Shown in pieces: positions 3,166 to 22,463 of a stretch of DNA of 64,000 bases. Under the pieces are notes generated by a model. That model saw nothing but the letters and a program-made list of their open reading frames with translations. It was not told the origin of the DNA and did no database searches. This DNA is from Marinomonas sp. KMM3893. GTDB taxonomy: Bacteria > Pseudomonadota > Gammaproteobacteria > Pseudomonadales > Marinomonadaceae. How positions within the stretch are numbered: position 1 is the stretch's first letter; every line of letters begins with the position of its first letter. The translations under genes were made by a program, and so were the position numbers. Location of the stretch: the NCBI RefSeq assembly GCF_004352855.1, contig NZ_SJSC01000005.1, forward strand, positions 62,001 through 126,000. Reading direction: 5' to 3'.

Positions 3166-4140
3166 TTACGCTTCTTTTTCACGGTAGGCGTAAGTCGCAT
3201 CAAAGCGCGACTGTATCCAATCACCGCTTAAAATTGGCTCATATTTCGCCGGCTTATTGTCCGACTGACAAGACTCAACACAGACAACATTGGTTTCGTA
3301 ATCCGGTTCAACAAAAAATGGGAAGGAGTAACGATGAACCCCTTCTACTGGAGACACCACACGGTGCGCGGTTGATACGTACTCGTCATTTGTCCAGCGT
3401 TGCATCAAGTCACCAATGTTCACGACCAAGGCGTTTTCAATCGGGGTAGCATCGACCCACTCACCTTGACGGTTTTTCACCTGCAAGCCACCAATTTGGT
3501 CTTGCAGCAACAAGGTTACACAGCCGTAATCGGTATGGGCACCAGCGCCATTATCATGGTCGTTCTGTGGACGAGGTGGGTAGTGAATCATTCGCAGCAC
3601 AGTGACATGGTCGGTGAAACAGCGCGTGAAAAAATCGTCTTCAAGAGACAAGGCTTGCGCCATACTGGTCAGCACCACCTTCGCCACGTCAAACGCCGCC
3701 ACATAATAATCCTGCAACACTTCTACAGCGGCCGGGTCAGTAGGGTTTTGGTTTGGGCCATACATTTTTGGGTATTTGGCCACCAGCGGATGATCGATCG
3801 GCAGATCCAGCGCCATATCAAACGTTTCTTTCCAATCTGCATGGGAGACTTCATCTAGCTGCTCCTCACCAATGCAGCCATAGCCACGATGATTTGGGCT
3901 TTGCTTGATATCAATGGCACGCTTTACGTCTTCTGGCTGAGCAAAATACGTCTTCGCTGTCGCCATCAGTTTATTAAATAAGTCACTCGAAATGCCGGTG
4001 TTTACCAGATAAAAAAAGCCGATTTCTCGGCATGCTTTATCAAGCGCCCTCACCTCTTCCAAACGTGTCGAATCATTTGTGTGCGTGAGCTTTTCCAAAT
4101 CAATTAACGGGATAGACACTCTTGGACCCTCCAATTTCAC
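3166..4140 (-). CDS. 2-oxoglutarate/Fe(II)-dependent oxygenase, isopenicillin N synthase family
   Basis: 324 residues. The N-terminal DIOX_N region (about 8-120) includes the family stretch REIGFFYLVNTGI. The C-terminal 2OG-Fe(II) core carries the iron triad His202-x-Asp204 (AHTDYG) and His259 (TAHRV), and the 2-oxoglutarate-binding Arg270-x-Ser272 (HRYSF). The fold is therefore complete and probably active, but the family spans ethylene-forming enzymes, desaturases and hydroxylases, so the substrate is unknown. It starts 43 bp after the helicase gene stops on the same strand and may be the last gene of a three-gene operon with it and the aspartoacylase-like gene. Confidence 0.9.
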   Translation of the reverse strand: MKLEGPRVSIPLIDLEKLTHTNDSTRLEEVRALDKACREIGFFYLVNTGISSDLFNKLMATAKTYFAQPEDVKRAIDIKQSPNHRGYGCIGEEQLDEVSHADWKETFDMALDLPIDHPLVAKYPKMYGPNQNPTDPAAVEVLQDYYVAAFDVAKVVLTSMAQALSLEDDFFTRCFTDHVTVLRMIHYPPRPQNDHDNGAGAHTDYGCVTLLLQDQIGGLQVKNRQGEWVDATPIENALVVNIGDLMQRWTNDEYVSTAHRVVSPVEGVHRYSFPFFVEPDYETNVVCVESCQSDNKPAKYEPILSGDWIQSRFDATYAYREKEA

Positions 4141-4183
4141 TATTATTATGTTTCGTTCTACATCGTCTTACTCTGTAGAACGT

Positions 4184-6499
4184 CTAAGCTCTTGACGACA
4201 ACTTAACCAACTGGGTGTGCTGAGGATTAAATCGCTTTAGTCCTTCTTCACCAAAATCGACAAAAATCATGCGCTTTCCATCGGCTTCTTGACGCACCAC
4301 CACCCCTTGACCAAATTGGTCATGACGTACTTTATCGCCGGATTTTAAGCCCTTGTTGTTATCACTTATTTGATGGCGAAACACCAGATTCGGAGAAGGG
4401 TCCACACGATTCAAATAACGCTGAAACAAGATCCCCTTTTCCGTATCTATGGGGTCTTCACTGCTTTTTTCGTGCCAAAGTTGAGTGATTTTACTAACCG
4501 CATAAGGCTGAGCCTCAAACACAAACCGTGACAGCGCCAAATGCTTTAATGCCGCCCTCGGAATATCGCCACGCTTCATTTTTTTACTTTCCTCTGGTGT
4601 GGGGGTTTCCAACAGCACCAGCTTTTGTTTCGCACGAGTAATCGCCACATAAAACAGCCGACGCTCTGAAGCCATCTGACTCGCGGCTTTGTTATCAATC
4701 GCACTCAGGTCTTCGTCATAATAAGGGAAACGGCCTTCTTGCAAGCCAGACAACAACACCAGATTAAATTCCAACCCCTTGGATTTATGAATGGTCATCA
4801 AATGAATGCCACGTTCATCATCGGCTTGCTTTTCATTCAAGGTCGCCAGTTGCGTCAAAACGCTTTCGGCATCGCCGCCCACACCGCGTACATAGGCCAT
4901 AAAAGCATCACAGGTGGCGATTTTCTCTTGGGTTTGAATGTCTTTGTTACTGGTGCTTTCGAAATAGCGATAAATGCCCAGTTTTTCGAGCGTGTGCGCC
5001 AAACCTTGTGCCGGGTCCGAGCGATAAATACTCAAACTTCTTAGCCAATCGGCTCGTTCATAAAGTTTTTTGGCTCGCCACCCTTCTGCTTGGTCGGCCA
5101 TGGTTTCAATAATTTGCGGCAACAAATGAGGCGACTGCCTCGCTTGCTGAATCAAGGTATTACGCTGGGCCACCGAACCACCCAAGCTAGGCACGGTCAG
5201 CAGAAAATCAACATCATCACGACGAAAGAAGAGATCTGGCTTCTCCAAAGCACCGGCAATCACCGCTAAATACGCCATCAGCATGCGTATTTGTCGGTTT
5301 TCCAACAAGGGTGAATCACCATGCAATTGATACGGCACCCCCTTGTGCATCAGCGCCAATTGCACCGGCACCATGTCACTGTACAAACGCACCAACACCG
5401 CCGACTCATTTAACGCACGGCCGGATTCTACCCAGGCTTTTAATTCGCCCAACAAGGCCTTACCGGTTTTTGGGGCGCGCGCAAAAGACACTTGAGTGCT
5501 TTTGCCTTCGCCAATCACCAAGGCGTCTGGGTCATTTTCACTGATCACACTCGACGCCATCAGGCCGATTGCATGACCAAAACGAAAACTCGTGCTTAAT
5601 GGGTAGGTCTCGACCGCTTGGAAATCACGATCAAACTGACTCGCCATAATTTCAGGACTGGCCCCACGCCATTCGTAAATACACTGCTGTACATCACCCA
5701 CAATCATCCACTGACACGGCGCTGGGTAGAGTATTTTCAGCAATTCATACTGACAAGGGTTGATGTCTTGAAACTCGTCGATCAATAAATAACGAAAATC
5801 CGGCACAAAACCGTGCACTTGGTGACGCTCTGCCTCATTAAGGTCCAATAACAAATCGTATGGATCGGCCAACAAATCAGCAAAAAAACGAACGTTATTG
5901 CGCTTGCGCAGGTCTTCAAGCTCCTCATAGAGCGCCGGAAAAAACTGACGTTCTTTCGACCAGCCGAGGGCGTCAAAAACCTCCCTCGCCGAGGTCGCGG
6001 AGGCCTTTACTTGATCAATAAACAACAAGACATCTTCGAGCCAATCTTTTTCGTCTTGCAGGGTGATTTTTTCCCCTTTGCGCACCAAGCGATTTAACGC
6101 CTCACGCAACATTTTCACTAGGCTAAAATCGTCCGTCAGAAGTTTGGCGTTGGGCAGCCAACCCTGTTGCTCTAAACGGCGGCAAAGCTTTAAACCAAAG
6201 CCATGAAACGTCATCACACTGGGCGAACGCCCTTGTCCGCAGTTTTTTAAATGCTGACTCAAACGCTCACTAAACTCTTCTTGGGCGCTCTTGTTAAACA
6301 TAAAAACGCCGATTTCAGACGCCGCTACACCCTGCTCAAGCAAAAATTCAATACGCGAAATCAAGGTGGTCGTTTTGCCTGCCCCAGCCACCGCGATGAC
6401 TTTTGCAGGTGAGTGGATATTGTGTTGCACAACAGCACGCTGCTCAGACGTCAATTGACGTGGCGCCGCTTGCTGATCTATCAAAATCTCATCAATCAA
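4184..6499 (-). CDS. UvrD/Rep-like superfamily 1A DNA helicase
   Basis: 771 residues, ATP-dependent 3'-5' helicase family. Q-type motif LTSEQRAVV (about 16-24), Walker A GAGKTT (39-44), motif Ib/II with LLIDEFQDIN (DEFQD at 241-245), GDVQQCIYEWRGA (motif III), MTIHKSKGLEFNLVLL (motif V) and VAITRAKQKL (motif VI) are all present. The last 60 residues (KVRHDQFGQGVVV to FVDFGEEGLKRF) match the small C-terminal tail domain of PcrA/UvrD that binds RNA polymerase. Motifs II and III differ from canonical UvrD (DEFQDIN versus DEFQDTN, YEWRGA versus YRFRGA), so I would not call it uvrD or rep outright. Only 11 bp separate it from the upstream aspartoacylase-like gene. Confidence 0.9.
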   Translation of the reverse strand: MIDEILIDQQAAPRQLTSEQRAVVQHNIHSPAKVIAVAGAGKTTTLISRIEFLLEQGVAASEIGVFMFNKSAQEEFSERLSQHLKNCGQGRSPSVMTFHGFGLKLCRRLEQQGWLPNAKLLTDDFSLVKMLREALNRLVRKGEKITLQDEKDWLEDVLLFIDQVKASATSAREVFDALGWSKERQFFPALYEELEDLRKRNNVRFFADLLADPYDLLLDLNEAERHQVHGFVPDFRYLLIDEFQDINPCQYELLKILYPAPCQWMIVGDVQQCIYEWRGASPEIMASQFDRDFQAVETYPLSTSFRFGHAIGLMASSVISENDPDALVIGEGKSTQVSFARAPKTGKALLGELKAWVESGRALNESAVLVRLYSDMVPVQLALMHKGVPYQLHGDSPLLENRQIRMLMAYLAVIAGALEKPDLFFRRDDVDFLLTVPSLGGSVAQRNTLIQQARQSPHLLPQIIETMADQAEGWRAKKLYERADWLRSLSIYRSDPAQGLAHTLEKLGIYRYFESTSNKDIQTQEKIATCDAFMAYVRGVGGDAESVLTQLATLNEKQADDERGIHLMTIHKSKGLEFNLVLLSGLQEGRFPYYDEDLSAIDNKAASQMASERRLFYVAITRAKQKLVLLETPTPEESKKMKRGDIPRAALKHLALSRFVFEAQPYAVSKITQLWHEKSSEDPIDTEKGILFQRYLNRVDPSPNLVFRHQISDNNKGLKSGDKVRHDQFGQGVVVRQEADGKRMIFVDFGEEGLKRFNPQHTQLVKLSSRA

Positions 6500-6510
6500 A
6501 ATAATGTAGC

Positions 6511-7653
6511 CTAGTCTTCAAATAAATTCCCGATCTCTCGAAAAGCCAGATGTTCACGGCCGGCAATTTTCGCGATCGATTCACCACGGACCACCAAACG
6601 GCGCTGCACGCGAGCAAAAAACACCCCATTCGCTCGCGCCACCAACGGGTAACGAGACGCATCAACATCGTCGTCCATTAAGTCCACCACCTCACCAATG
6701 ACTTCACCTGCTTCCACCGACTCACCAATATTTTTGCGGTAACAAACAATGCCAGCACAGGGGGCTTTTACCAAATCCATTGCATCCAATGGGTAATACA
6801 CTACCTTGCTGTCATCAATCTCAGGGGTGTCTCCTGCGATCACATTGCGTAATATTAAATAGTCAAACAAGGCCTTCGCATCGTGCGCCGCGTATTCATC
6901 ACAAATGTCATTCTCACCACGCAATTCCACCGTTAACGAACGACTGCCCCAAGGAATCAAATGGGCATAGTCAGATTTAAGCGTTCGCCACACACTGACA
7001 TTGGTCTCATCAAAGGACGCTGCCCCCGTCTCCAATTCAGACAAGCCGACTTTGGCACCCAATAACGCCAACAAAGGCCTGAAATGCTCTTCAAACTCTT
7101 GTGCCACGTACGCATGCATACTGGCTTCACCTGAACAATGCAGATCCAATATTTCGTCGGCGTCCATCGACAAGGCCAACAAGGTTTTCTTCATGCCTTG
7201 CAGTTCGGTATTTTCAGGCAGTTCAGCCAGCTCTTGCGCTATTATCGAGCGCACTAAACTGACATTTTCTTGGCCATCTGAACTGACTTCACCGTGGAGA
7301 CGTTTTTTTACTTTTTCGCCGAGTTGAGGCCAATTGCGGTTGAAATTACCGCCACCGTCCGAGAACGCGAAACGACCTGGAATGTAACCATGAAAGTTTT
7401 GCGCCAAACCAATCGGATTGGCCACCGGGACAATAATAATCTCCCCCTGAATTAAGCCCTTTTCATCGGCTTCTTTAAGCAGTTTGATTAAACTATTGAG
7501 GACCAAAAAACCCGGCCATTCATCGGCATGAAGCCCGGCTTGTAAATACACTTTAGGTCGCGCGCCTTGCTCCCCGAAATGATGCGCTTTGATGATGCGC
7601 TGAGTGCCCAGCGTCGCACTCGGCAAAGTATGGGAATAAATTTGATATGGCAT
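6511..7653 (-). CDS. Succinylglutamate desuccinylase/aspartoacylase family protein (M14-like)
   Basis: I place the start at the ATG 7651-7653 (380 residues, MPYQIYSHTLP) rather than the upstream in-frame ATG at 7716, because the extra 21 residues are not family-like. The zinc site is visible: His42-Ala-Asp-Glu45 in GLHADEW, with the third ligand in DLHCSGE. VPVANPIGL and GNFNRNWP are typical AstE/AspA substrate-binding stretches. A C-terminal beta-barrel domain (APCAGIVCYRKNIGESV) resembles a lipoyl-like extension seen in this family. It should hydrolyse an N-acyl amino acid or similar amide; the substrate is unknown. It is the first gene of a likely operon with the helicase and oxygenase. 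Confidence 0.88.
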   Translation of the reverse strand: MPYQIYSHTLPSATLGTQRIIKAHHFGEQGARPKVYLQAGLHADEWPGFLVLNSLIKLLKEADEKGLIQGEIIIVPVANPIGLAQNFHGYIPGRFAFSDGGGNFNRNWPQLGEKVKKRLHGEVSSDGQENVSLVRSIIAQELAELPENTELQGMKKTLLALSMDADEILDLHCSGEASMHAYVAQEFEEHFRPLLALLGAKVGLSELETGAASFDETNVSVWRTLKSDYAHLIPWGSRSLTVELRGENDICDEYAAHDAKALFDYLILRNVIAGDTPEIDDSKVVYYPLDAMDLVKAPCAGIVCYRKNIGESVEAGEVIGEVVDLMDDDVDASRYPLVARANGVFFARVQRRLVVRGESIAKIAGREHLAFREIGNLFED

Positions 7654-7753
7654 AATAACTCGTATAGTTCGGTGAAACACACGCCCACATTGAACAGGCA
7701 TCAGAGCAGGCAACATGGTACGCTAAAACAAATTTTTAATAAAAACCTTCTCA

Positions 7754-7791
7754 GTATTAAAAACGACTGTAATAAATAGTCGAACTAATAC
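7754..7791. repeat. Nested inverted repeat between divergent aspartoacylase-like and ynjB genes
   Basis: GTATTA (7754-7759) pairs with TAATAC (7786-7791) and inside it CGACT (7764-7768) pairs with AGTCG (7778-7782), giving 11 bp around a 9-base loop. It lies 49 bp before ynjB. Operator or leader structure are both possible. Confidence 0.5.
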
Positions 7792-7839
7792 GTCTAACAG
7801 GCATCATAGTCACCTCAACCACTATTTAAGGGGAAAGGA

Positions 7840-9039
7840 ATGCTCAAATCTTTGATCGCTGCATCGATCAGTGGTGCTTTATTATTCACCAGCATCCAAG
7901 CAAAAGCCGATTGGCAAGACACATTACAAGAAGCCAAAGGCCAGACCGTTTACTTCAACGCATGGGGTGGTGCTGACAATGTGAACGAGTATATTCGCTG
8001 GTCGGCAAAACGCATCAAAGAGCAATACGGCGTTACCCTAAAACAAGTAAAACTGACCGACACCGCCGATGCAGTGAACCGTGTGCTGGCGGAAAAAGCC
8101 GCCGGTAAAAACGACAATGGCTCTATCGACCTGATCTGGTTAAACGGTGAAAATTTTCGCGCCATGAAAGACAATCAATTGCTTTATGGCCCGTTCAGCA
8201 CCCAATTACCGAACTACAAAAAGTACGTAAATGAGCACGCTCGTCAAAGCATCACCCATGACTTTGGCACCCCAGTGGACGGCATGGAATCCCCTTGGGG
8301 CATGGCGCAAGTTATTTTCATGTACGATACCGCCACCTTGAAAACGCCCCCTAAATCCATGCCTGAACTGCTTGCTTATGCGCAACAACATCCTGGCCGA
8401 ATTACCTACCCTGCGCCACCTCAGTTCCTTGGTGCTACTTTTTTAAAACAGGCCTTATACGAACTCACAACGGACAAAAGCGCACTCTCTAAACCCGTCG
8501 ACAGCGTCGACTTTCAAGCGGTAACGGCGCCTTTATGGGCGTATTTAGACAAACTGAATAAAGTGGCTTGGCGTCACGGTGAAACCTTTCCAAGCGATTC
8601 TACGCAAATGATACGTTTATTAGACGATCAAGAAATTGATGTTGCCCTCAGCTTTGATATTTCTTCTGCGTCCGTGGCCATTCAGCAAGGCAATTTACCC
8701 GATACCGTGCGCTCTTATGTCTTTACCAATGGCACCATTGGCAACACGCACTTCCTTGCCATTCCTTATAACAGCAGCGCCAAAGCCGGCGCCGAAGTCG
8801 TCGCAAACTTTATGCTGTCACCAGAAGCACAGATTCAAAAGCAGATTCCGACCGTTTGGGGAGACCTCAGCGTATTGTCTTACGATCGACTTGCGGCCGC
8901 TGATCAGAAAAAATTCGACGCTATCCCTCGCGGAATCGCCACATTAAGCATTGCTGAGTTAGGTAAGACCTTGCCTGAACCCCACACGAGCTGGGTAAAA
9001 GCATTAGAAAAAGAATGGCTTAAGCGTTATGCACAATAA
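7840..9039 (+). CDS. ynjB: ABC transporter substrate-binding protein, YnjB-like
   Basis: 399 residues with a clear Sec signal peptide (MLKSLIAASISGALLFTSIQAKA, split here as residues 1-23, cleavage before DWQ). The mature protein has the periplasmic binding-protein pattern TVYFNAWGGADNVNEY followed by a long D-L-I-W-L-N-GENF segment characteristic of the YnjB group. AAGGGGAAAGG precedes the ATG at a good distance. The next two genes encode the matching permease and ATPase. YnjBCD systems are uncharacterised as to substrate, although related systems carry thiamine, iron or polyamines. A stem-loop at 9079-9111 downstream suggests the binding protein is made in excess over the permease. Confidence 0.88.
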   Translation: MLKSLIAASISGALLFTSIQAKADWQDTLQEAKGQTVYFNAWGGADNVNEYIRWSAKRIKEQYGVTLKQVKLTDTADAVNRVLAEKAAGKNDNGSIDLIWLNGENFRAMKDNQLLYGPFSTQLPNYKKYVNEHARQSITHDFGTPVDGMESPWGMAQVIFMYDTATLKTPPKSMPELLAYAQQHPGRITYPAPPQFLGATFLKQALYELTTDKSALSKPVDSVDFQAVTAPLWAYLDKLNKVAWRHGETFPSDSTQMIRLLDDQEIDVALSFDISSASVAIQQGNLPDTVRSYVFTNGTIGNTHFLAIPYNSSAKAGAEVVANFMLSPEAQIQKQIPTVWGDLSVLSYDRLAAADQKKFDAIPRGIATLSIAELGKTLPEPHTSWVKALEKEWLKRYAQ

Positions 9040-9078
9040 CGCTATAAGTCAAAAACACACTAAACAGAAGACCTACCC

Positions 9079-9111
9079 GCACAGTGCGTTATTGCCCACT
9101 GTGCTGTTTTT
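9079..9111 (+). terminator. Intercistronic stem-loop (partial terminator) between ynjB and ynjC
   Basis: Perfect 8-bp stem GCACAGTG (9079-9086) with CACTGTGC (9097-9104), 10-base loop, then TGTTTTT. Such structures commonly stabilise binding-protein mRNA or cause partial termination. Confidence 0.7.
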
Positions 9112-13369: not shown

Positions 13370-14977
13370 GTGCCTGTGGTCACTTGGAGTTTTTTACCTG
13401 TTCTTATTCCTCTCGCGCTGGTGCTGTGCGGATGGTTTGGCTGTCGAGAAAAATCGACCTCGGTGCCACAAAAAGCCGTTTGGTTAAGTCGAGGCTTGCT
13501 CTTTCTTTATGGCTTAAATCTAGGGGTGCATTACTTTTTAACCACACCAAAGCAAGACCATGCGCTTCTTCATCACACTGTACTTAGCCAGATTATGCTG
13601 GCGCTGATCGTGGTGATGAGCTGGGTACTGTTGCGCTTTTCACGCCAGTATATGAATGGACAAGCCAATCGCGCCCGCTATTACCGGTGGCTTATGTTTA
13701 CCCTTGCTTCTGTGGCTCTGACGGTGATGTCCAACCACCTTATGCTGTTTTGGCTTGGCTGGCTGTGCATTAGCCTCTCGCTGCACAACTTACTGACTTT
13801 TTTCCCTGATCGACCTCGTGCGATTTTAGCGGCTCATAAAAAATTCATCTTAGCGCGGATCGCCGAACTGACGCTGTTCATTGCGTTTATGCTCCTTTAC
13901 CAACAACACCAAAGTTTCTACATAAACGGCATTCTTTCGTCTTTGACACAGCAAGAGAGCATGGGGCAAGCGCTGTCGTGGCAAGACCAACTGGCCGCCT
14001 GTTTGATTGCTTTTGCCGCCTTAATTAAATGTGCCCAATTGCCTTTTCATGGCTGGCTCATTCAAGTGGTCGAATCCCCTACCCCCGTCAGTGCTTTGCT
14101 TCATGCTGGGGTGATCAATTTAGGCGGCTATATGTTGCTGCTCTTTACCCCGCTTGTGTCCCAAAGCTTGTCTGCCATTTGGCTATTACTCATTGTGGCG
14201 GGCCTGTCCACGCTTGCCAGCAGCTTGGTGATGACCACGCGCATCAGCGTTAAAGTTCGCCTAGCGTGGTCAACCAGCGCACAAATGGGGTTAATGTTGT
14301 TGGAATTTGCCCTCGGCCTTTATGAGTTAGTGCTGTTGCACTTGCTTGCTCACTCTTTTTACAAGGCCTATTCCTTCCTTAACTCAGGCAATGCGGTAAA
14401 CGATTATTTGCGGTTGGCTCTCTCAGCACCGACAAAACACAGCGCGAAGACGCCTTCTTTACCCAAGCTAAAAGAGTGGTTTTTAGCGCTCACCATCGCC
14501 ACCGCTTGTGTCGTAGCAGTACGCTTTGCCTTTCATTTTGAAACAGCCTTCAGCACCTGGTGGCTATTCGCCTTGGCACTGAGTATTTTGATTATTCAGT
14601 GGCGCACTTCTGAGCACCCTGCATCATGGTTAACGACCTTAATTACCGGCGCAGTGCTAACGCTTATTTATGCCTCATTAAAGACTGCCATCTGGTTTGC
14701 CTTGCCTCCTGAAACCGGTCAGGTTCGCGCATTTTCTTACCCTGATATCTGGGCAATGAGCTTATTTACATTGCTCTTTGCGACCCATCTTCTGTTGCAC
14801 TACCAAGTTCATTGGCCATTCGTACGACGCCTTTCTATGACGCTTTTCGCGGGCTTGTACCTAGACGAGTGGGTCACCCGTGCAGCGCTAAAAATCTGGC
14901 CCGTTCACTTACCAGCAAGAGCCAAAGAACAGCACTCAACGTCGTTTTCTGACCTCAGCTTACCTGAGCATTTTTAG
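13370..14977 (+). CDS. dabB: DabB, membrane subunit of the DAB inorganic carbon accumulation complex
   Basis: 535 residues, around 13 hydrophobic helices, of the proton-conducting antiporter (Proton_antipo_M / NuoL-like) family. The core region ALIKCAQLPFHGWLIQVVESPTPVSALLHAG (here split by position, about 220-250) contains the conserved lysine and LPFH/SPTPVSALLHAG motifs. Although it would be named NADH dehydrogenase subunit 5 by simple similarity, no other nuo gene is present and the next gene is dabA, so DabB is the better call: it is thought to use proton movement to power CO2 hydration by DabA. The start is GTG at 13370 with GGAG at 13358-13361. dabA follows after 9 bp. Confidence 0.92.
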   Translation: MPVVTWSFLPVLIPLALVLCGWFGCREKSTSVPQKAVWLSRGLLFLYGLNLGVHYFLTTPKQDHALLHHTVLSQIMLALIVVMSWVLLRFSRQYMNGQANRARYYRWLMFTLASVALTVMSNHLMLFWLGWLCISLSLHNLLTFFPDRPRAILAAHKKFILARIAELTLFIAFMLLYQQHQSFYINGILSSLTQQESMGQALSWQDQLAACLIAFAALIKCAQLPFHGWLIQVVESPTPVSALLHAGVINLGGYMLLLFTPLVSQSLSAIWLLLIVAGLSTLASSLVMTTRISVKVRLAWSTSAQMGLMLLEFALGLYELVLLHLLAHSFYKAYSFLNSGNAVNDYLRLALSAPTKHSAKTPSLPKLKEWFLALTIATACVVAVRFAFHFETAFSTWWLFALALSILIIQWRTSEHPASWLTTLITGAVLTLIYASLKTAIWFALPPETGQVRAFSYPDIWAMSLFTLLFATHLLLHYQVHWPFVRRLSMTLFAGLYLDEWVTRAALKIWPVHLPARAKEQHSTSFSDLSLPEHF

Positions 14978-14986
14978 GGAATTAGC

Positions 14987-17368
14987 ATGACTATGAACAA
15001 TCAGCAAAAAAGCCTATTAGTGACTGCCACTAAAAAAATCGCCCCGAGCTGGCCTCTCGATAAACTCATAGCCGTTAATCCATTATGGTCATTGATTGAT
15101 AAGCCGTTTGATACTGTGGCGGCTGAGTTATCCGCCATCGCAGGGATCAAAGCCCATTTGCCGATAGAAACCTATGTCGCTTGGTTTAAACAGGGGCGCA
15201 TTGATCAAGCGTCGCTCACCAAAGCCGCGCAACATTATGCGGTGGATGCATTACCAGAATCGCTCATCGAAATGCTTTCTAAGCCAATCCCAACACTGAC
15301 GCCATGGCAAAACATCGCCGACTTAGCTGACCAAGAAAGGCCGGCGACGAAAATGTCATGGCACGATGAAATCACGCATCAAGTGAGTCAGTTTTGTGCC
15401 GATCATTACCAGCAAGTGAGCCCAACACTCAGACAAATGAGCAGTAATGATCAAACACATCTATACCCCCATTGGCTCACCATTACCACGCAAGACAAGG
15501 GATTGAGCATTGTTCTTGATGAGCCTAAGCTAATTCATCTGTTCAACGCGTTGCCAAACAATACGGATCAACTCTTTGCGCTGGCCATCGAAGAATTGGC
15601 ACTGGATGACGTCTCCTTGCCCTACTACGCCCATGCTTTACTGTTAGACATTAACGGCTGGAGCAGTTATCTGGCTTATCTGCATTGGCAAAACCCCAAC
15701 GACCAAGAAGATCATTTAATGTCGTTGCTGGCGATTAAGATGGCGTGGGAACTGGTCATCTGGCGTTACTTAACCTCCCAAGAGAACCCTCAGGCAAGCG
15801 CCATCAAACAAGCGTGGGAAAAACAAAAACAGACAATAGAACAACATATTGCCAAGCATAAAGAGGCCTTGCTGAGCGCAAAAATCTGGGCTTTGGCCTT
15901 AGAGTACGCAGAGCAAAAACAGCTCAATACACTGCTCACCTCCCAATCCTACCCCTTAACAAAACAACGCCCGCCAGTATTGCAGGCGGTGTTCTGCATC
16001 GACGTTCGCTCCGAAGTCATCAGACGCGCTTTAGAGAAACAAGATGACGCCATACAAACCTTTGGGTTTGCAGGCTTTTTTGGGTTACCCATCGAATACA
16101 AAGCCAAAGACAGCGCCTTCTCAAGGCCTCAGTTACCCGGTTTATTATCGCCATCGATCACAGTAAGCGAATGCGAAACTAATATTGAGCACGCTCAAAA
16201 AGAGCAACAACAAGCCCGCTGGCAACGTTGGGGGCATTCTGCACCAGCCACTTTCTCAATGGTCGAATCTATGGGTTGGTGGTATGCCTTTAAAATGTTC
16301 AAGCAAACGCTGTTTTCAAAGCGCCAAACGAACCCTGCGGCAAGACTAGCGCCCAACACCCAGTGGAACATAACCCAAAATGGCGAACCATTAACAACAC
16401 AAGATAAAGCCAAGCTCGCAAAAGGTGTATTAGACACCATGGGGATAAAACACTATGCAGAAACCGTGCTCTTGGTTGGTCATGGCAGCCATACCAGTAA
16501 CAACCTGCATGCGGCTGGGTTAGAGTGCGGCGCCTGCGGTGGGCAAAGCGGTGAAGTGAATGTCAAAGTACTGAGCAGATTATTAAACGACGCAGAAGTT
16601 CGCTCATGCTTACACACCATGGGCATCAAGATCCCTCAGCACACAACATTTGTCGCGGCTCTGCACAATACCACCACGGATCAGCTCACCTGCTTTGACC
16701 ACCAAACCACGCCTCAACAAAGCCATTGGTTAGAACAAGCCATGTACGGCGCACAAAAAGAACGAGCGAAGAAACTCGATGCCTCCCTACTCAATGTATC
16801 GGACAAGCAACGCCATAAGGCATTTCTAAAACGCGCGAACGATTGGTCTCAAGTCAACCCAGAATGGGGATTGGCCAACAACCATGCCTTTATCATCGCA
16901 CCACGCCAACAAACTCGTCAGCTCAACTTAAAGGGTCGCAGTTTTTTACACGATTACGATTATCAAACCGATTCTGATTTTGGCATTTTAGAGCGCCTGT
17001 TAACCGCGCCAATGCTCGTGGCCCACTGGATCAATATGCAATACAACTTATCGGTGACCGACCACTTTAAGTTCGGTAGCGGTAATAAAGTGCTGCACAA
17101 TGCAGTAGGCGGCAATATTGGCGTTTTTGAAGGCAACGGCGGGGATTTACGCATTGGCTTGCCCATGCAATCTATCAGCGACGGTAAAAATTGGATGCAC
17201 ACACCAGTCAGATTAGCCGTCTATATTTCCGCCCCTAAAAGCGCCATTGCAGACATAGTCGCCAAACATGAGACAGTAAGGCAACTCATCGACAACGACT
17301 GGCTGTCTCTTTTTTACTGGCAAGACCAAACCATCGAACGCTTTTATCAGCAAGAATGGCAGGCCTAA
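14987..17368 (+). CDS. dabA: DabA, zinc carbonic-anhydrase-like subunit (DUF2309/UPF0753)
   Basis: 793 residues. Four residues that bind zinc or act in catalysis in characterised DabA are present with the same spacing: Cys337 and Asp339 (VFCIDVRSE), His499 (LVGHGSH) and Cys514 (AGLECGACGG); the His-to-Cys distance of 15 matches the Halothiobacillus protein. DabA is cytoplasmic, binds DabB, and hydrates CO2 to bicarbonate in one direction, coupled to the proton gradient. AGGGA overlapping the dabB stop serves as ribosome-binding site; a second in-frame ATG lies two codons in. No RuBisCO or carboxysome genes are in view, so here it probably supplies bicarbonate for carboxylases in a heterotroph. 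Confidence 0.94.
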   Translation: MTMNNQQKSLLVTATKKIAPSWPLDKLIAVNPLWSLIDKPFDTVAAELSAIAGIKAHLPIETYVAWFKQGRIDQASLTKAAQHYAVDALPESLIEMLSKPIPTLTPWQNIADLADQERPATKMSWHDEITHQVSQFCADHYQQVSPTLRQMSSNDQTHLYPHWLTITTQDKGLSIVLDEPKLIHLFNALPNNTDQLFALAIEELALDDVSLPYYAHALLLDINGWSSYLAYLHWQNPNDQEDHLMSLLAIKMAWELVIWRYLTSQENPQASAIKQAWEKQKQTIEQHIAKHKEALLSAKIWALALEYAEQKQLNTLLTSQSYPLTKQRPPVLQAVFCIDVRSEVIRRALEKQDDAIQTFGFAGFFGLPIEYKAKDSAFSRPQLPGLLSPSITVSECETNIEHAQKEQQQARWQRWGHSAPATFSMVESMGWWYAFKMFKQTLFSKRQTNPAARLAPNTQWNITQNGEPLTTQDKAKLAKGVLDTMGIKHYAETVLLVGHGSHTSNNLHAAGLECGACGGQSGEVNVKVLSRLLNDAEVRSCLHTMGIKIPQHTTFVAALHNTTTDQLTCFDHQTTPQQSHWLEQAMYGAQKERAKKLDASLLNVSDKQRHKAFLKRANDWSQVNPEWGLANNHAFIIAPRQQTRQLNLKGRSFLHDYDYQTDSDFGILERLLTAPMLVAHWINMQYNLSVTDHFKFGSGNKVLHNAVGGNIGVFEGNGGDLRIGLPMQSISDGKNWMHTPVRLAVYISAPKSAIADIVAKHETVRQLIDNDWLSLFYWQDQTIERFYQQEWQA

Positions 17369-17401: not shown

Positions 17402-18505
17402 CTACCTGCCTGCGCTTTGCCGAATCTGAGCTGCGTACAATGGTAAGAGTGCAGACAACTCAAACGGTTCAACAGAGGGCGCTTCGGCGCTCTCTGTGGC
17501 CAGTTTTATCATCAGATCAACCGCACTCTGAGCTTCTTTTTCTGGGTCATGCAGGTCACTGTGATATAAAAACTCATTGCCAAATAACTCTGGGTACACT
17601 TGCCGGTTTGGTAGCACTGGGACACAGCCAAGGGCGACGGCTTCTAGTACCGCCAAGCCTTGAAATTCATGCAAGGCAGTGGATAAGACAATGTCAGCAG
17701 ACGCTAAACAATCAAGGTAGTCTTGTCTGTTTTTAGCGAATCCAAATTGGCTGATTTGTGCTGAAAATGCCTGCTTAATTTGCTCAAACTCTTTGGGGAT
17801 CGAACGAAACTGTTCACCTAAGATGGCGATCTCAAACGGCACATGACGAGCGCTTAATTCCTGAAGAATAGCGAGCAGACGATCTGGCCCTTTGTCGTAT
17901 TCCCATCTGGCCGACCAGACTATGCGCATCGGCGCCTGCCCTGCTCGCTTATCGATGTGAGGCTTTGTCATTAAAGTGGGGACAGAAACAGGAACCGGCA
18001 CCACACAGGCTTTTTCTTCGCTCACACTGAGCCAATCTGGCGACACATAATCCGGCAGTTTCTTAAGCAGGGCCCGCGCACCAGAGAAAAAAGAGTCTTT
18101 ATTAAATTGACTGTTAAACACGCATTGATCCGCCGCCAACGCGCTGTACAAAGTCACCATTTGCATTTCGACCAAGCCTTGCTGTTTATCACTCGCTGGG
18201 TAGGCAAATTGATTTTCGTGAAAATACAGTAACCAAGGGATATTTTGTAGATCAGGGCAAAAGGCTTTTAATCCCACGCAATCTGTCATCGACGTGGCCA
18301 TGATCAAATCATAAGGCTTTTCTAACAAGGGTTTGAACTTAGGGTCAAACGCAAAGCTCATGGCGTTGCCTCGAATACGCCAAGCAAAATGCCGCGGCGG
18401 CAATGCCATATAGGTCCAATCATGCTCCGGCAGGTTGCTCATCAATGCGTCGGCCCACGCTTTATGGCTGCTTGCTTCGTAAGCACTAATCAATAAAATT
18501 CGCAC
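17402..18505 (-). CDS. Glycosyltransferase, tRNA-queuosine alpha-mannosyltransferase family (DUF3524/GTDC1-like)
   Basis: 367 residues with GT-B architecture. The N-terminal half is the DUF3524 domain: MRILLISAYEASSHKAW, LPPRHFAWRIRGN, ATSMTDCVGLKAF and LYFHENQFAYP are its signature blocks. The C-terminal half is a glycosyltransferase family 4 domain (IVWSARWEYDKGPDRLL; EFQGLAVLEAVALGCVPVLP, the nucleotide-sugar-binding EX7E-like region). The animal homologue QTMAN attaches mannose to queuosine in tRNA-Asp. What the bacterial homologue modifies is not established as far as I know. It is a single gene, convergent with dabA and divergent from the dienelactone hydrolase gene. Confidence 0.85.
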   Translation of the reverse strand: MRILLISAYEASSHKAWADALMSNLPEHDWTYMALPPRHFAWRIRGNAMSFAFDPKFKPLLEKPYDLIMATSMTDCVGLKAFCPDLQNIPWLLYFHENQFAYPASDKQQGLVEMQMVTLYSALAADQCVFNSQFNKDSFFSGARALLKKLPDYVSPDWLSVSEEKACVVPVPVSVPTLMTKPHIDKRAGQAPMRIVWSARWEYDKGPDRLLAILQELSARHVPFEIAILGEQFRSIPKEFEQIKQAFSAQISQFGFAKNRQDYLDCLASADIVLSTALHEFQGLAVLEAVALGCVPVLPNRQVYPELFGNEFLYHSDLHDPEKEAQSAVDLMIKLATESAEAPSVEPFELSALLPLYAAQIRQSAGR

Positions 18506-18586
18506 AAAATCCTCTTACTCATTAAGACCAACCCCTTCCTATTTCTTGGTTGATACTGGCTCATCGTTGTTGGGTCGAATATCATG

Positions 18587-20102: not shown

Positions 20103-20217
20103 GCGCTGAGAAATAAAACGCGCTTTACGCCAATAGTCTGCCATAAAAAAACGCAGCCTAGGCTGCGTTTTATCAGAATCGATCTGTTATTCCAAAGCGG
20201 CTGTTATTTCTCAGCGC
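20103..20217. repeat. 14-bp perfect inverted repeat flanking the efpL terminator
   Basis: GCGCTGAGAAATAA at 20103-20116 is the exact inverse complement of 20204-20217, which encodes the last codons and stop of efpL. The 86-bp interval between them contains the terminator hairpin, so the efpL 3' end could fold into a longer stem enclosing it. Confidence 0.75.
20144..20172 (-). terminator. Intrinsic terminator of efpL
   Basis: Palindrome AACGCAGCC-TA-GGCTGCGTT centred at 20159/20160, followed on the minus strand by a T-run (A-run 20144-20150 on plus). Confidence 0.88.
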
Positions 20218-20776
20218 GCCCTGCAAATTTGCGTTCTTCCACGTTTACCTTGATCTTATCACCAGTCGAAATATGCTCAGGCACTTGAATAATCGCACCC
20301 GTCGCTAGCTTCGCAGGCTTGTTTCGAGACGTAGCAGACGCGCCCTTGATAGAAGGGTCGGTTTCGATGACTTCTAGCTCAACGTTGGTCGGCAATTCCA
20401 AGGCAACAGGCGCATCATCAACCAAGACAATTTGAATGCCCGCAGTGGCTTCATTGATGAACAGCAATTCTTCTTCGATTGACGATTTGTTCAAGCTATA
20501 AGGTGTGTAATCTTCGTTGTCCATGAAAACGTATTCTTCGCCGTCGGCGTAAGAAAACATCACTGGGCGACGCACCAAATCAGCCAGATTCAACATTTCA
20601 GAATCTTTAAATGTTTCATCCACTTTGCGATCCGTCACAACATCGTACATACGCATGCGGTACAAGCTGCCACCTGCGCGGCCTTGTGGTACAGAACGTT
20701 CAATGTCTCTTACAATGTACGTTTTGCCGTCGTATTCGATGGCCATATTTTTTTTGATTTCACTAGCCTTTGGCAT
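20204..20776 (-). CDS. efpL: Elongation factor P-like protein EfpL (YeiP)
   Basis: 190 residues, three OB-like domains of the EF-P fold. [42 protein letters not shown] and [24 protein letters not shown] are YeiP-type rather than EF-P-type sequences. The loop that reaches the peptidyl-transferase centre is [14 protein letters not shown], with an arginine where EF-P has its modified lysine, as in YeiP. EfpL rescues ribosomes stalled at proline-containing motifs without needing post-translational modification of that tip. The gene is monocistronic with its own strong terminator, and is 182 bp downstream of the mazG-like gene. Confidence 0.93.
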
Positions 20777-20958: not shown

Positions 20959-21306
20959 CTAATACTGATTGTATTTTTTCGCACTGCCTTTGACTTTGTC
21001 TACTGGGTAATGACGCGCGTTTTTCTCAATTTTCTGCTCTGCCGCCGCCATTAAATCAATATTCAGTTTGTCCGCCAAACGCACAGTAAAGAGCAGTACG
21101 TCTGCCAGCTCTTCTTTGACTGCTTGGGATTGTGCCGCGTCCAATTGATAAGACGCCTCTTCGGTCAACCAACGAAAACAATCCAACAACTCGGCCGTTT
21201 CACCAGCCAATGCCATAGAAAGGTTTTTAGGAGAGTGGAACTGATCCCACTCTCGCTCCTTGGCGAATTCACGCATAGCGACTTTCAGCGCTTCAAGAGA
21301 ATCCAT
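20959..21306 (-). CDS. MazG-like nucleotide pyrophosphohydrolase
   Basis: 115 residues, single all-helical MazG/RS21-C6 domain. The metal-binding signature is visible: LAGETAELLDCF (E-x-x-E-type) and KEELADVLLFTVRLADKL (E-E-x-x-D). Such small proteins hydrolyse non-canonical or surplus dNTPs (dCTP analogues in the animal homologue) to monophosphate and pyrophosphate. Its ATG overlaps the stop codon of the upstream carboxypeptidase by one base (TAATG), so the two are translationally coupled. Confidence 0.88.
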   Translation of the reverse strand: MDSLEALKVAMREFAKEREWDQFHSPKNLSMALAGETAELLDCFRWLTEEASYQLDAAQSQAVKEELADVLLFTVRLADKLNIDLMAAAEQKIEKNARHYPVDKVKGSAKKYNQY

Positions 21307-22463
21307 TATTCACTATCAACCTGCATGTACTTGCTATTCAGCACGTGATACACAGGATAAAGCACATCAGCGCCTAATATTTTGGCACGCTCAGGCGACC
21401 AACCCACCATTTCGTCAGGCAGGTTTTGGTTGTCTTTAAAAGGCATTTCAAGGGTAAGCGCTAAACAGCGATAGGTTTCACCAACCCACTTTGTCGCCAC
21501 CGTTAAATTGGCCTCGCCAAACTGATCTGGCTCGTAACCAATCTCCGTTTGAAAATCTGGGCTAACCGCCAAAAACATGTCTTTGAACAGTGTTTCCATC
21601 GATTCCATACGCGCATCAAACGACGGCACGCCTTGGCAACCATCGACGAAATTCACTGGTAAGGCTTCGTCACCGTGAATGTCTAAAAACATGTCGACGC
21701 CCGTTTCGGCCATCTTAGTTTGCACTGCCAACACTTCTGGACTGAACTCTTTCGTCGGTTTTTTCCACTCACGATTCAAGTTCACGCCTTTTGAGTTCAC
21801 GCGCAAATTACCATGCACTGCGCCGTCTGGGTTCATGTTCGGCACCACATAGAAGCGACACTTTTCGAGCAAGGCTCGCGACACAGGATGAGACTCATCA
21901 AATAAACGCTCTAACAAGCCCTCAATGAACCATTCTGCCATGGTTTCACCTGGGTGTTGGCGCGCGGTAATCCAAACGTTTTTCGCCAGACCTTGGGTTT
22001 TGCTGATTTCCAACATGGTGATATCGCGCCCTTCGGCGGTTTCACCTAGATGGTGCGTAATGCAGTCTTCATTGCTCGCCGCCCACGCCATCATGTCTAA
22101 ATGACGCTCGTAGCTGTACGGTGCAAAGTACGCATAATAGACGCTGTCTTGCTCAGGCTGATGATTAATCACCAGCTTCCCATCTACGTATTCCGTTGGC
22201 ACACGGAACCAATATTCTCTGTCATAAGAGGCAACGGCTTGGTAATCGACCCAGCCATCTGGGTAAGCGGCGTCATTGGCGTTCTCAAATTGAATCACGC
22301 AACTTTCGCCCATACCGCCTTGTAAGCGAAAATAAAACCATTGAAGAAATTTAGAGTTTGTATCATTAGGGATCTTTACTCTAATATTGTCCGGCTCCGA
22401 GGCTTCAATAACGGAGATGTTACCGCCATCAAACGCACTACTGATCTTGATTCGGCTGGTCAT
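21306..22463 (-). CDS. M14 family cytosolic carboxypeptidase
   Basis: 385 residues. The N-terminal beta-sandwich domain (about 1-120; WFYFRLQGGMGE) is typical of cytosolic carboxypeptidases (M14D). The catalytic domain carries the zinc motif HPGE (ARQHPGETMAEW), the third ligand in DIHGDE, the NPDGAVHGNLRVN and GVNLNREW substrate-binding stretches, and the catalytic glutamate in LTLEMPFKDN. Eukaryotic relatives trim polyglutamate tails; the bacterial substrates are unknown. It is co-translated with the MazG-like gene. Its 5' end is close to, and divergent from, the hypothetical gene at 22500. Confidence 0.9.
   Translation of the reverse strand: MTSRIKISSAFDGGNISVIEASEPDNIRVKIPNDTNSKFLQWFYFRLQGGMGESCVIQFENANDAAYPDGWVDYQAVASYDREYWFRVPTEYVDGKLVINHQPEQDSVYYAYFAPYSYERHLDMMAWAASNEDCITHHLGETAEGRDITMLEISKTQGLAKNVWITARQHPGETMAEWFIEGLLERLFDESHPVSRALLEKCRFYVVPNMNPDGAVHGNLRVNSKGVNLNREWKKPTKEFSPEVLAVQTKMAETGVDMFLDIHGDEALPVNFVDGCQGVPSFDARMESMETLFKDMFLAVSPDFQTEIGYEPDQFGEANLTVATKWVGETYRCLALTLEMPFKDNQNLPDEMVGWSPERAKILGADVLYPVYHVLNSKYMQVDSE

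Follow-up and report, generated by a model that had tools for sequence, protein, structure and literature searches.

The tRNA-queuosine alpha-mannosyltransferase of animals, QTMAN, was reportedly identified in a 2023 Cell paper. According to the accessible parts of two reports, the animal enzyme acts on queuosine at position 34 (Q34) of tRNA-Asp (PMC12518689, PMC12313893), and the product is described, in the available text of a third, as an alpha-mannoside on the allylic hydroxyl (PMC8654956). In PMC12313893, galQ and manQ were followed by the mass transitions 572 to 163 and 572 to 295. The same nucleoside of tRNA-Asp is modified in Escherichia coli by GluQ-RS (YadB), the glutamyl-queuosine tRNA-Asp synthetase, an enzyme that attaches glutamate there, as stated in the accessible part of PMC3542578. 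The preliminary description of the DNA studied here, made from its sequence, had bacteria containing queuosine or its glutamyl form, and this agrees with what two reviews say in their available sections. One from 2020 assigns mannosyl- and galactosyl-queuosine (ManQ, GalQ) to eukaryotes only and not to bacteria (PMC7694415). The other, on bacterial tRNA modification and from 2025, shows Q34 and GluQ34 in its table, and in its available text no word starts with mannos or glycosyl (PMC12548931). Lectin-detected glycoRNA has been described in E. coli (PMC12873605); queuosine occurs in the accessible text of that paper once, in its reference to the 2023 Cell paper. We found no report of bacterial mannosyl-queuosine in the literature, a search that could miss one in a subscription journal or a preprint.

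A QTMAN-family gene in a Marinomonas genome

The window, which is the whole stretch of 64,000 nucleotides analysed here, lies on contig C11 of a Marinomonas assembly of 3.75 Mb in 15 contigs. On its minus strand we located a gene of the QTMAN family (Table 1). Frame 1 of the plus strand across the same positions has many stops. The GTG start is supported by a stop in the same frame, four codons 5' of it, and by the AGAGGA sequence in front of it. When the protein was analysed by hmmscan, it matched QTMAN_N (PF12038), which we take to be the former DUF3524, with 179.1 bits at a cut-off of 25, and the GT4 catalytic domain (PF00534) with 44.6 bits at a cut-off of 26.4. The layout of DUF3524 plus GT4 that the preliminary description had read as that of QTMAN was borne out by these matches, the first of which covers the full length of its profile. 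None of the NCBIfam equivalogs (EpsE, GlgA, BshA and others) reached its cut-off, the best scoring 33 bits versus 400, and therefore it is Pfam alone that names a specific function for the protein. Bacterial proteins are already included in QTMAN_N by Pfam, which makes the gene a further member of an established family.

Table 1. Positions of the QTMAN-family gene, its domains and motifs, and neighbouring genes in the window
Feature	Position	Strand	Details
QTMAN-family glycosyltransferase gene	17402..18505	minus	367 aa; GTG start; exact ORF bounds
Shine-Dalgarno-like AGAGGA	18510..18515	minus	4 nt before GTG
QTMAN_N domain (PF12038)	17987..18502	minus	residues 2-173; 8.2e-53; profile 1-168 of 168
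WRIRGN motif	18365..18382	minus	residues 42-47; W42, R43 and N47 invariant, R45 and G46 at least 90% (39 rows)
HENQ motif	18209..18220	minus	residues 96-99; invariant (39 rows)
GT4 catalytic domain (PF00534)	17492..17923	minus	residues 195-338; 1.5e-11
E-x7-E motif (EFQGLAVLE)	17642..17668	minus	residues 280-288
Pair of subunit L family (NF006029, DabB-like) and DabA genes	13370..17368	plus	inorganic carbon uptake
DabA-matching gene	14987..17368	plus	PF10070, 1e-229
EfpL, elongation factor P-like	20204..20776	minus	NF003392, 4.9e-94
M14 carboxypeptidase	21306..22463	minus	cytosolic carboxypeptidase N-terminal domain (PF18027, 9.3e-42)

The window protein was then aligned with 38 named relatives. 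PF12038 matched all 39 proteins and PF00534 matched 31 of them at 1e-5. Besides the two N-terminal motifs of Table 1, the residues N131, N135, R200, E202, D204 and K205 were invariant in the 39 proteins. In the E-x7-E motif, whose role in GT4 enzymes we take from general knowledge, E288 was kept in at least 90% of the rows, and position 280 is an aspartate in many relatives. The comparison with the closest named relative (L023) gave 96, 57 and 201 differences at codon positions 1, 2 and 3 over 366 codons, which indicates that the window protein is under purifying selection. The most hydrophobic stretch of 19 residues has a mean of 1.67 and lies inside the GT4 domain, and the pI is 5.4. These values suit a soluble enzyme and are no sign of RNA binding.

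The AlphaFold2 model of the window protein had a mean pLDDT of 90.4 and a pTM of 0.89, a GT-B fold predicted with high confidence. The whole model aligned to GT-B enzymes, and the nearest folds were sucrose-phosphate synthase, GlgM, BshA and MshA. The best match was sucrose-phosphate synthase 6kih (Z 30.9, rmsd 3.0, 330 residues aligned); BshA with UDP reached Z 28.7 and the mannosyltransferase 7qsg Z 28.0 (rmsd 3.1, 320 aligned). For the GDP-mannose enzymes PimA (2gej) and PimB' (3oka), the values were Z 24.4 (rmsd 3.8, 311 aligned) and Z 24.7 (rmsd 3.6, 322 aligned). The neighbours of the model are informative for the predicted fold and not for the donor, since enzymes with other donors score equal or higher. 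Searching the PDB by sequence gave RfaG, CapJ and one other glycosyltransferase, all as weak matches, and no matching chain named QTMAN.

Distribution and gene neighbourhood of the family

The occurrence of PF12038 was analysed in three genome samples. In the phylum sample, 22 of the 239 genomes were carriers, 11 of them in the order of the window genome and 11 in a single family (f30), where one match (G192) was below the cut-off. This family is probably the Mariprofundaceae (Zetaproteobacteria), because G017 and L047, the latter from Mariprofundus sp. KV, have identical rows. The order sample, with genomes of a completeness of at least 90, contained 71 carriers among 145, and the class sample 16 among 276, two of these in the order. 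PF12038 was found in none of 14 control genomes. Each carrier of the three samples had one match, and all 71 matches of the order sample spanned at least the profile positions 3-166 without a stop. A class carrier outside the order, G423, has a match at C30:38780-39142 that covers the profile positions 1-119 only and contains a TAA; this copy is possibly decaying.

The named relatives are the best 80 of 573 from a genome scan, and the searches for kin covered the Pseudomonadota. Among these 80, the closest to the window protein were from Marinomonas, with 67-72% identity. In a quick tree of 107 rows, trimmed by script, the window row formed one group with seven other Marinomonas rows (support 100). 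The relatives mostly clustered by genus or family, and ten of the eleven zetaproteobacterial rows were in one group, with L010 apart. Of 25 viral stretches that fit the search pattern, none encodes a relative. The plasmids gave one match, in Ensifer, with an identity of 25.6% across 64% of the query and annotated as a glycosyltransferase.

Two long frames were considered as gene fusions. The frame of 707 aa in L118 was rejected, being an extension of the frame upstream of an ORF of 412 aa. In a MAG of Marinobacter antarcticus (L034, 5480-7624, plus strand), a single ORF of 714 aa encodes QTMAN together with a protein of about 316 aa. By eye the partner looks like a P-loop kinase, and a search of NCBIfam at 1e-20 found nothing for its relative in L038. 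The genes for the partner and QTMAN lie 3.8 kb from each other in L038 and are separate in L081 and L092 too. We rejected this fusion as naming a partner of QTMAN, since it was seen only once and could be an error of assembly.

The neighbourhood was studied by ORF calling and clustering, which gave the gene in 78 of 80 named loci with flanks of up to 8 kb, or less where a contig ended; L041 and L044, one MAG with identical proteins, are both counted among the 78. The gene for the tryptophan-tRNA ligase, trpS, was present in 19 loci by BLAST and in 20 by clustering. In 18 of the 78 it directly followed the QTMAN gene in the same orientation, the gap ranging from -100 to 128 bases. Within the flanks we also found uppP (20 loci), tsaB (TIGR03725, 16 loci), tgt (6 loci) and queA (4 loci), and a mltD-like gene recurs in a few loci as a further envelope gene besides uppP. 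The order QTMAN gene, trpS, TonB receptor, queA and tgt was seen in L048, L094 and L102 (Spongiibacter, Zhongshania), and in L052, L097 and L098 the gene faces a mltD-like gene, secF, secD, yajC and tgt. A block of tsaB, uppP, a reductase, an M18 aminopeptidase, QTMAN and trpS recurs, for example in L040 at 4031-9086 and then trpS; it occurs in whole or in part in loci of Spongiibacteraceae, Halieaceae and Cellvibrionaceae, among others.

Of 70 order carriers, 9 have the gene within 20 kb of tgt, and about 0.7 would be expected by chance, estimated for a 4-Mb genome. The nine cases are not nine independent events, since all of them are in three families (f78, f92, f95). In the window genome (G000), tgt and queA are on contig C9, and no queuosine gene adjoins the QTMAN gene on C11. 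There, the gene is convergent with the DabA-matching gene, with 33 bases between the two ends. EfpL, another translation gene, is the third gene upstream, with a dienelactone hydrolase, then YaeQ, between.

Queuosine, GDP-mannose and GluQ-RS genes in carriers

The window genome has tgt, queA and queG, and queuosine synthesis is present at the gene level. When the order sample was searched for tgt (TIGR00430, 1e-60), 70 of 71 carriers matched. So did 72 of 74 non-carriers, with a partial match in two of them. The remaining carrier, G262, a MAG of 390 contigs, has only a fragment of tgt, located where a contig ends. A further list of 27 carriers comprised the 11 of f30, G262 again and 15 genomes from named loci, among them L047, which is G017 a second time. 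Here, tgt was matched in 23; the MAGs of L063, L076, L100 and L101, of unknown completeness, gave no match, and the last three of these have queA. For queA, 70 of the 76 carriers searched were positive and 57 of the 58 of good quality; no match was found in G262, G192 and the genomes of L063, L074, L089 and L098. The tgt, queA and GluQ-RS searches covered carriers other than the 14 found solely in the class sample; 13 of these 14 have queG and all 14 match TIGR01479.

The preliminary description had proposed to look for the co-occurrence of tgt and queG with the gene and had named genomes with the gene and without tgt as evidence against a role in queuosine modification. No such carrier of good quality was found among those searched, G262 with its fragment being the nearest case. 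As to queG, it was present in 72 of the 73 carriers searched and in all 71 of good quality, the one without it being G440 (780 contigs). We rejected the co-occurrence with tgt as a strong test for lack of power. It counts as weak evidence, because tgt is near-universal in the clade, non-carriers included, and the test could hardly fail there.

The possible donor was studied with the GMP_PMI model TIGR01479. The window genome matched it with 4.4e-215, and GDP-mannose is available at the gene level. At 1e-60, 67 of the 71 order carriers had a match versus 50 of the 74 non-carriers (Fisher p 4e-5, with genome size and relatedness ignored). Counted by genus, the numbers were 38 of 41 versus 35 of 48 (p 0.025, two genera being counted on both sides). 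At 1e-20, 24 of 26 further carriers had a match, two by split or partial matches. Six carriers gave none (G252, G274, G303, G336, G112 and G192), four from the order and two zetaproteobacterial.

GluQ-RS (TIGR03838) was above the cut-off in all 71 order carriers, the window genome included, versus 64 of 74 non-carriers. The 11 carriers of f30 each have a paralogue of 306-331 aa below the cut-off, which we judged by length alone to be GluQ-RS. Outside the order sample, the 1.7-Mb carrier MAG of L040 (genome G365) has tgt and, for the GluQ-RS model, a match of GluRS length only; it may be the one carrier among those searched without GluQ-RS. If QTMAN and GluQ-RS both require Q34 of tRNA-Asp, they should exclude each other; this was rejected on the 71 carriers that have both. 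Layout and family stood as first described, and the presence of GluQ-RS had not been foreseen. With this second enzyme for Q34 of tRNA-Asp in the carriers, the bacterial QTMAN would act either on another tRNA with queuosine or on a tRNA-Asp common to both enzymes.

Proposed activity, alternatives and comparison with known systems

We think it probable that the window protein, a GT4 enzyme of the QTMAN family, is soluble and of the retaining type and moves alpha-mannose from GDP-mannose onto the predicted queuosine at position 34 of a tRNA. The enzyme would take the sugar with its anomeric configuration retained and place it on a hydroxyl of the cyclopentene diol at the wobble position, giving mannosyl-queuosine. 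A retaining GT4 enzyme with an alpha-linked donor forms an alpha product, and the alpha-mannoside of animals fits such an enzyme. By analogy to animals, tRNA-Asp would be the default acceptor, which the enzyme would share with GluQ-RS, in competition or side by side. The analysis itself shows the family, the predicted fold, the conservation and purifying selection, and a genome with tgt, queA, queG and GDP-mannose synthesis; Q34 as acceptor, GDP-mannose as donor, the product, the hydroxyl used and the solubility are inferred. Points in favour of this activity are the full QTMAN_N match, the GT-B fold with GDP-mannose enzymes among the near structures, the queuosine genes and the more frequent GDP-mannose synthesis of carriers, and the tRNA genes near the gene in relatives. 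Points against it are GluQ-RS in every order carrier, the location of tgt and queA on another contig in the window genome, the recurrent envelope genes and the carriers that gave no TIGR01479 match.

It is unlikely, though worth weighing, that Q34 is glycosylated with another sugar or in another of the queuosine tRNAs (Tyr, His, Asn), with tRNA-Asp left to GluQ-RS. The presence of GluQ-RS in every order carrier and of its candidate paralogue in the zetaproteobacterial ones would fit this, as would the other-donor enzymes such as BshA among the near structures and the four order carriers without TIGR01479. However, GDP-mannose synthesis is commoner in carriers, and the animal enzyme works on tRNA-Asp, with selectivity for its hydroxyl, as far as the available text of PMC12313893 and PMC12518689 goes. 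We regard an acceptor other than tRNA as improbable, the protein then being an envelope, capsule or small-molecule GT4 enzyme that keeps an ancestral N-terminal domain. GT4 enzymes mostly serve such glycosylations, the nearest folds belong to sucrose-phosphate synthase, GlgM, BshA and MshA, and two envelope genes, uppP and the mltD-like one, recur near the gene. But when eleven recurrent neighbour families were compared with NCBIfam, they included no polysaccharide glycosyltransferase and four tRNA genes (trpS, tsaB, tgt and queA). The single, strongly conserved copy per carrier and the retention of tgt, queA and queG also speak against this acceptor. Finally, the patchy spread over about half of the order sample and the cut G423 match with its internal stop could suggest an inactive relic, decayed or without an acceptor; the signs of purifying selection, the invariant motifs in 39 rows and the near full-length order matches make this very improbable indeed.

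Returning to mannosylation of Q34, a wider proposal is more tentative, and we would rather doubt it than rely on it at present: many marine Gammaproteobacteria and Zetaproteobacteria may contain mannosyl-queuosine as a third bacterial hypermodified queuosine, with either glutamyl- or mannosyl-queuosine as the wobble base of tRNA-Asp. Two states of tRNA-Asp would then be set by competition or by the order of action, and the decoding of Asp codons would report the supply of GDP-mannose and glutamate. If the enzyme acts as predicted, glycosylated queuosine would also be bacterial, simple bacteria would offer a way to study the function of manQ, and one could ask where the animal enzyme came from. 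With QTMAN and GluQ-RS in one cell, the same wobble nucleoside is the proposed target of both, which allows a sharp test.

Taken together, the protein resembles three described systems in different respects. With animal QTMAN it shares the full QTMAN_N domain and the C-terminal GT4 domain, as judged by Pfam, and its likely substrates are available in the window genome at the gene level; it differs in the bacterial host and in the GluQ-RS encoded by the same genome. PimA and PimB' are GT4 mannosyltransferases of the GT-B fold that were solved with GDP-mannose, but they have only 16-19% identity to the window protein in the structural alignment, and their acceptors are presumably lipids. GluQ-RS has the proposed acceptor, Q34, as its target and is encoded in the same genome; in contrast to the window protein, it is a paralogue of the glutamyl-tRNA synthetase and adds glutamate, not a sugar.
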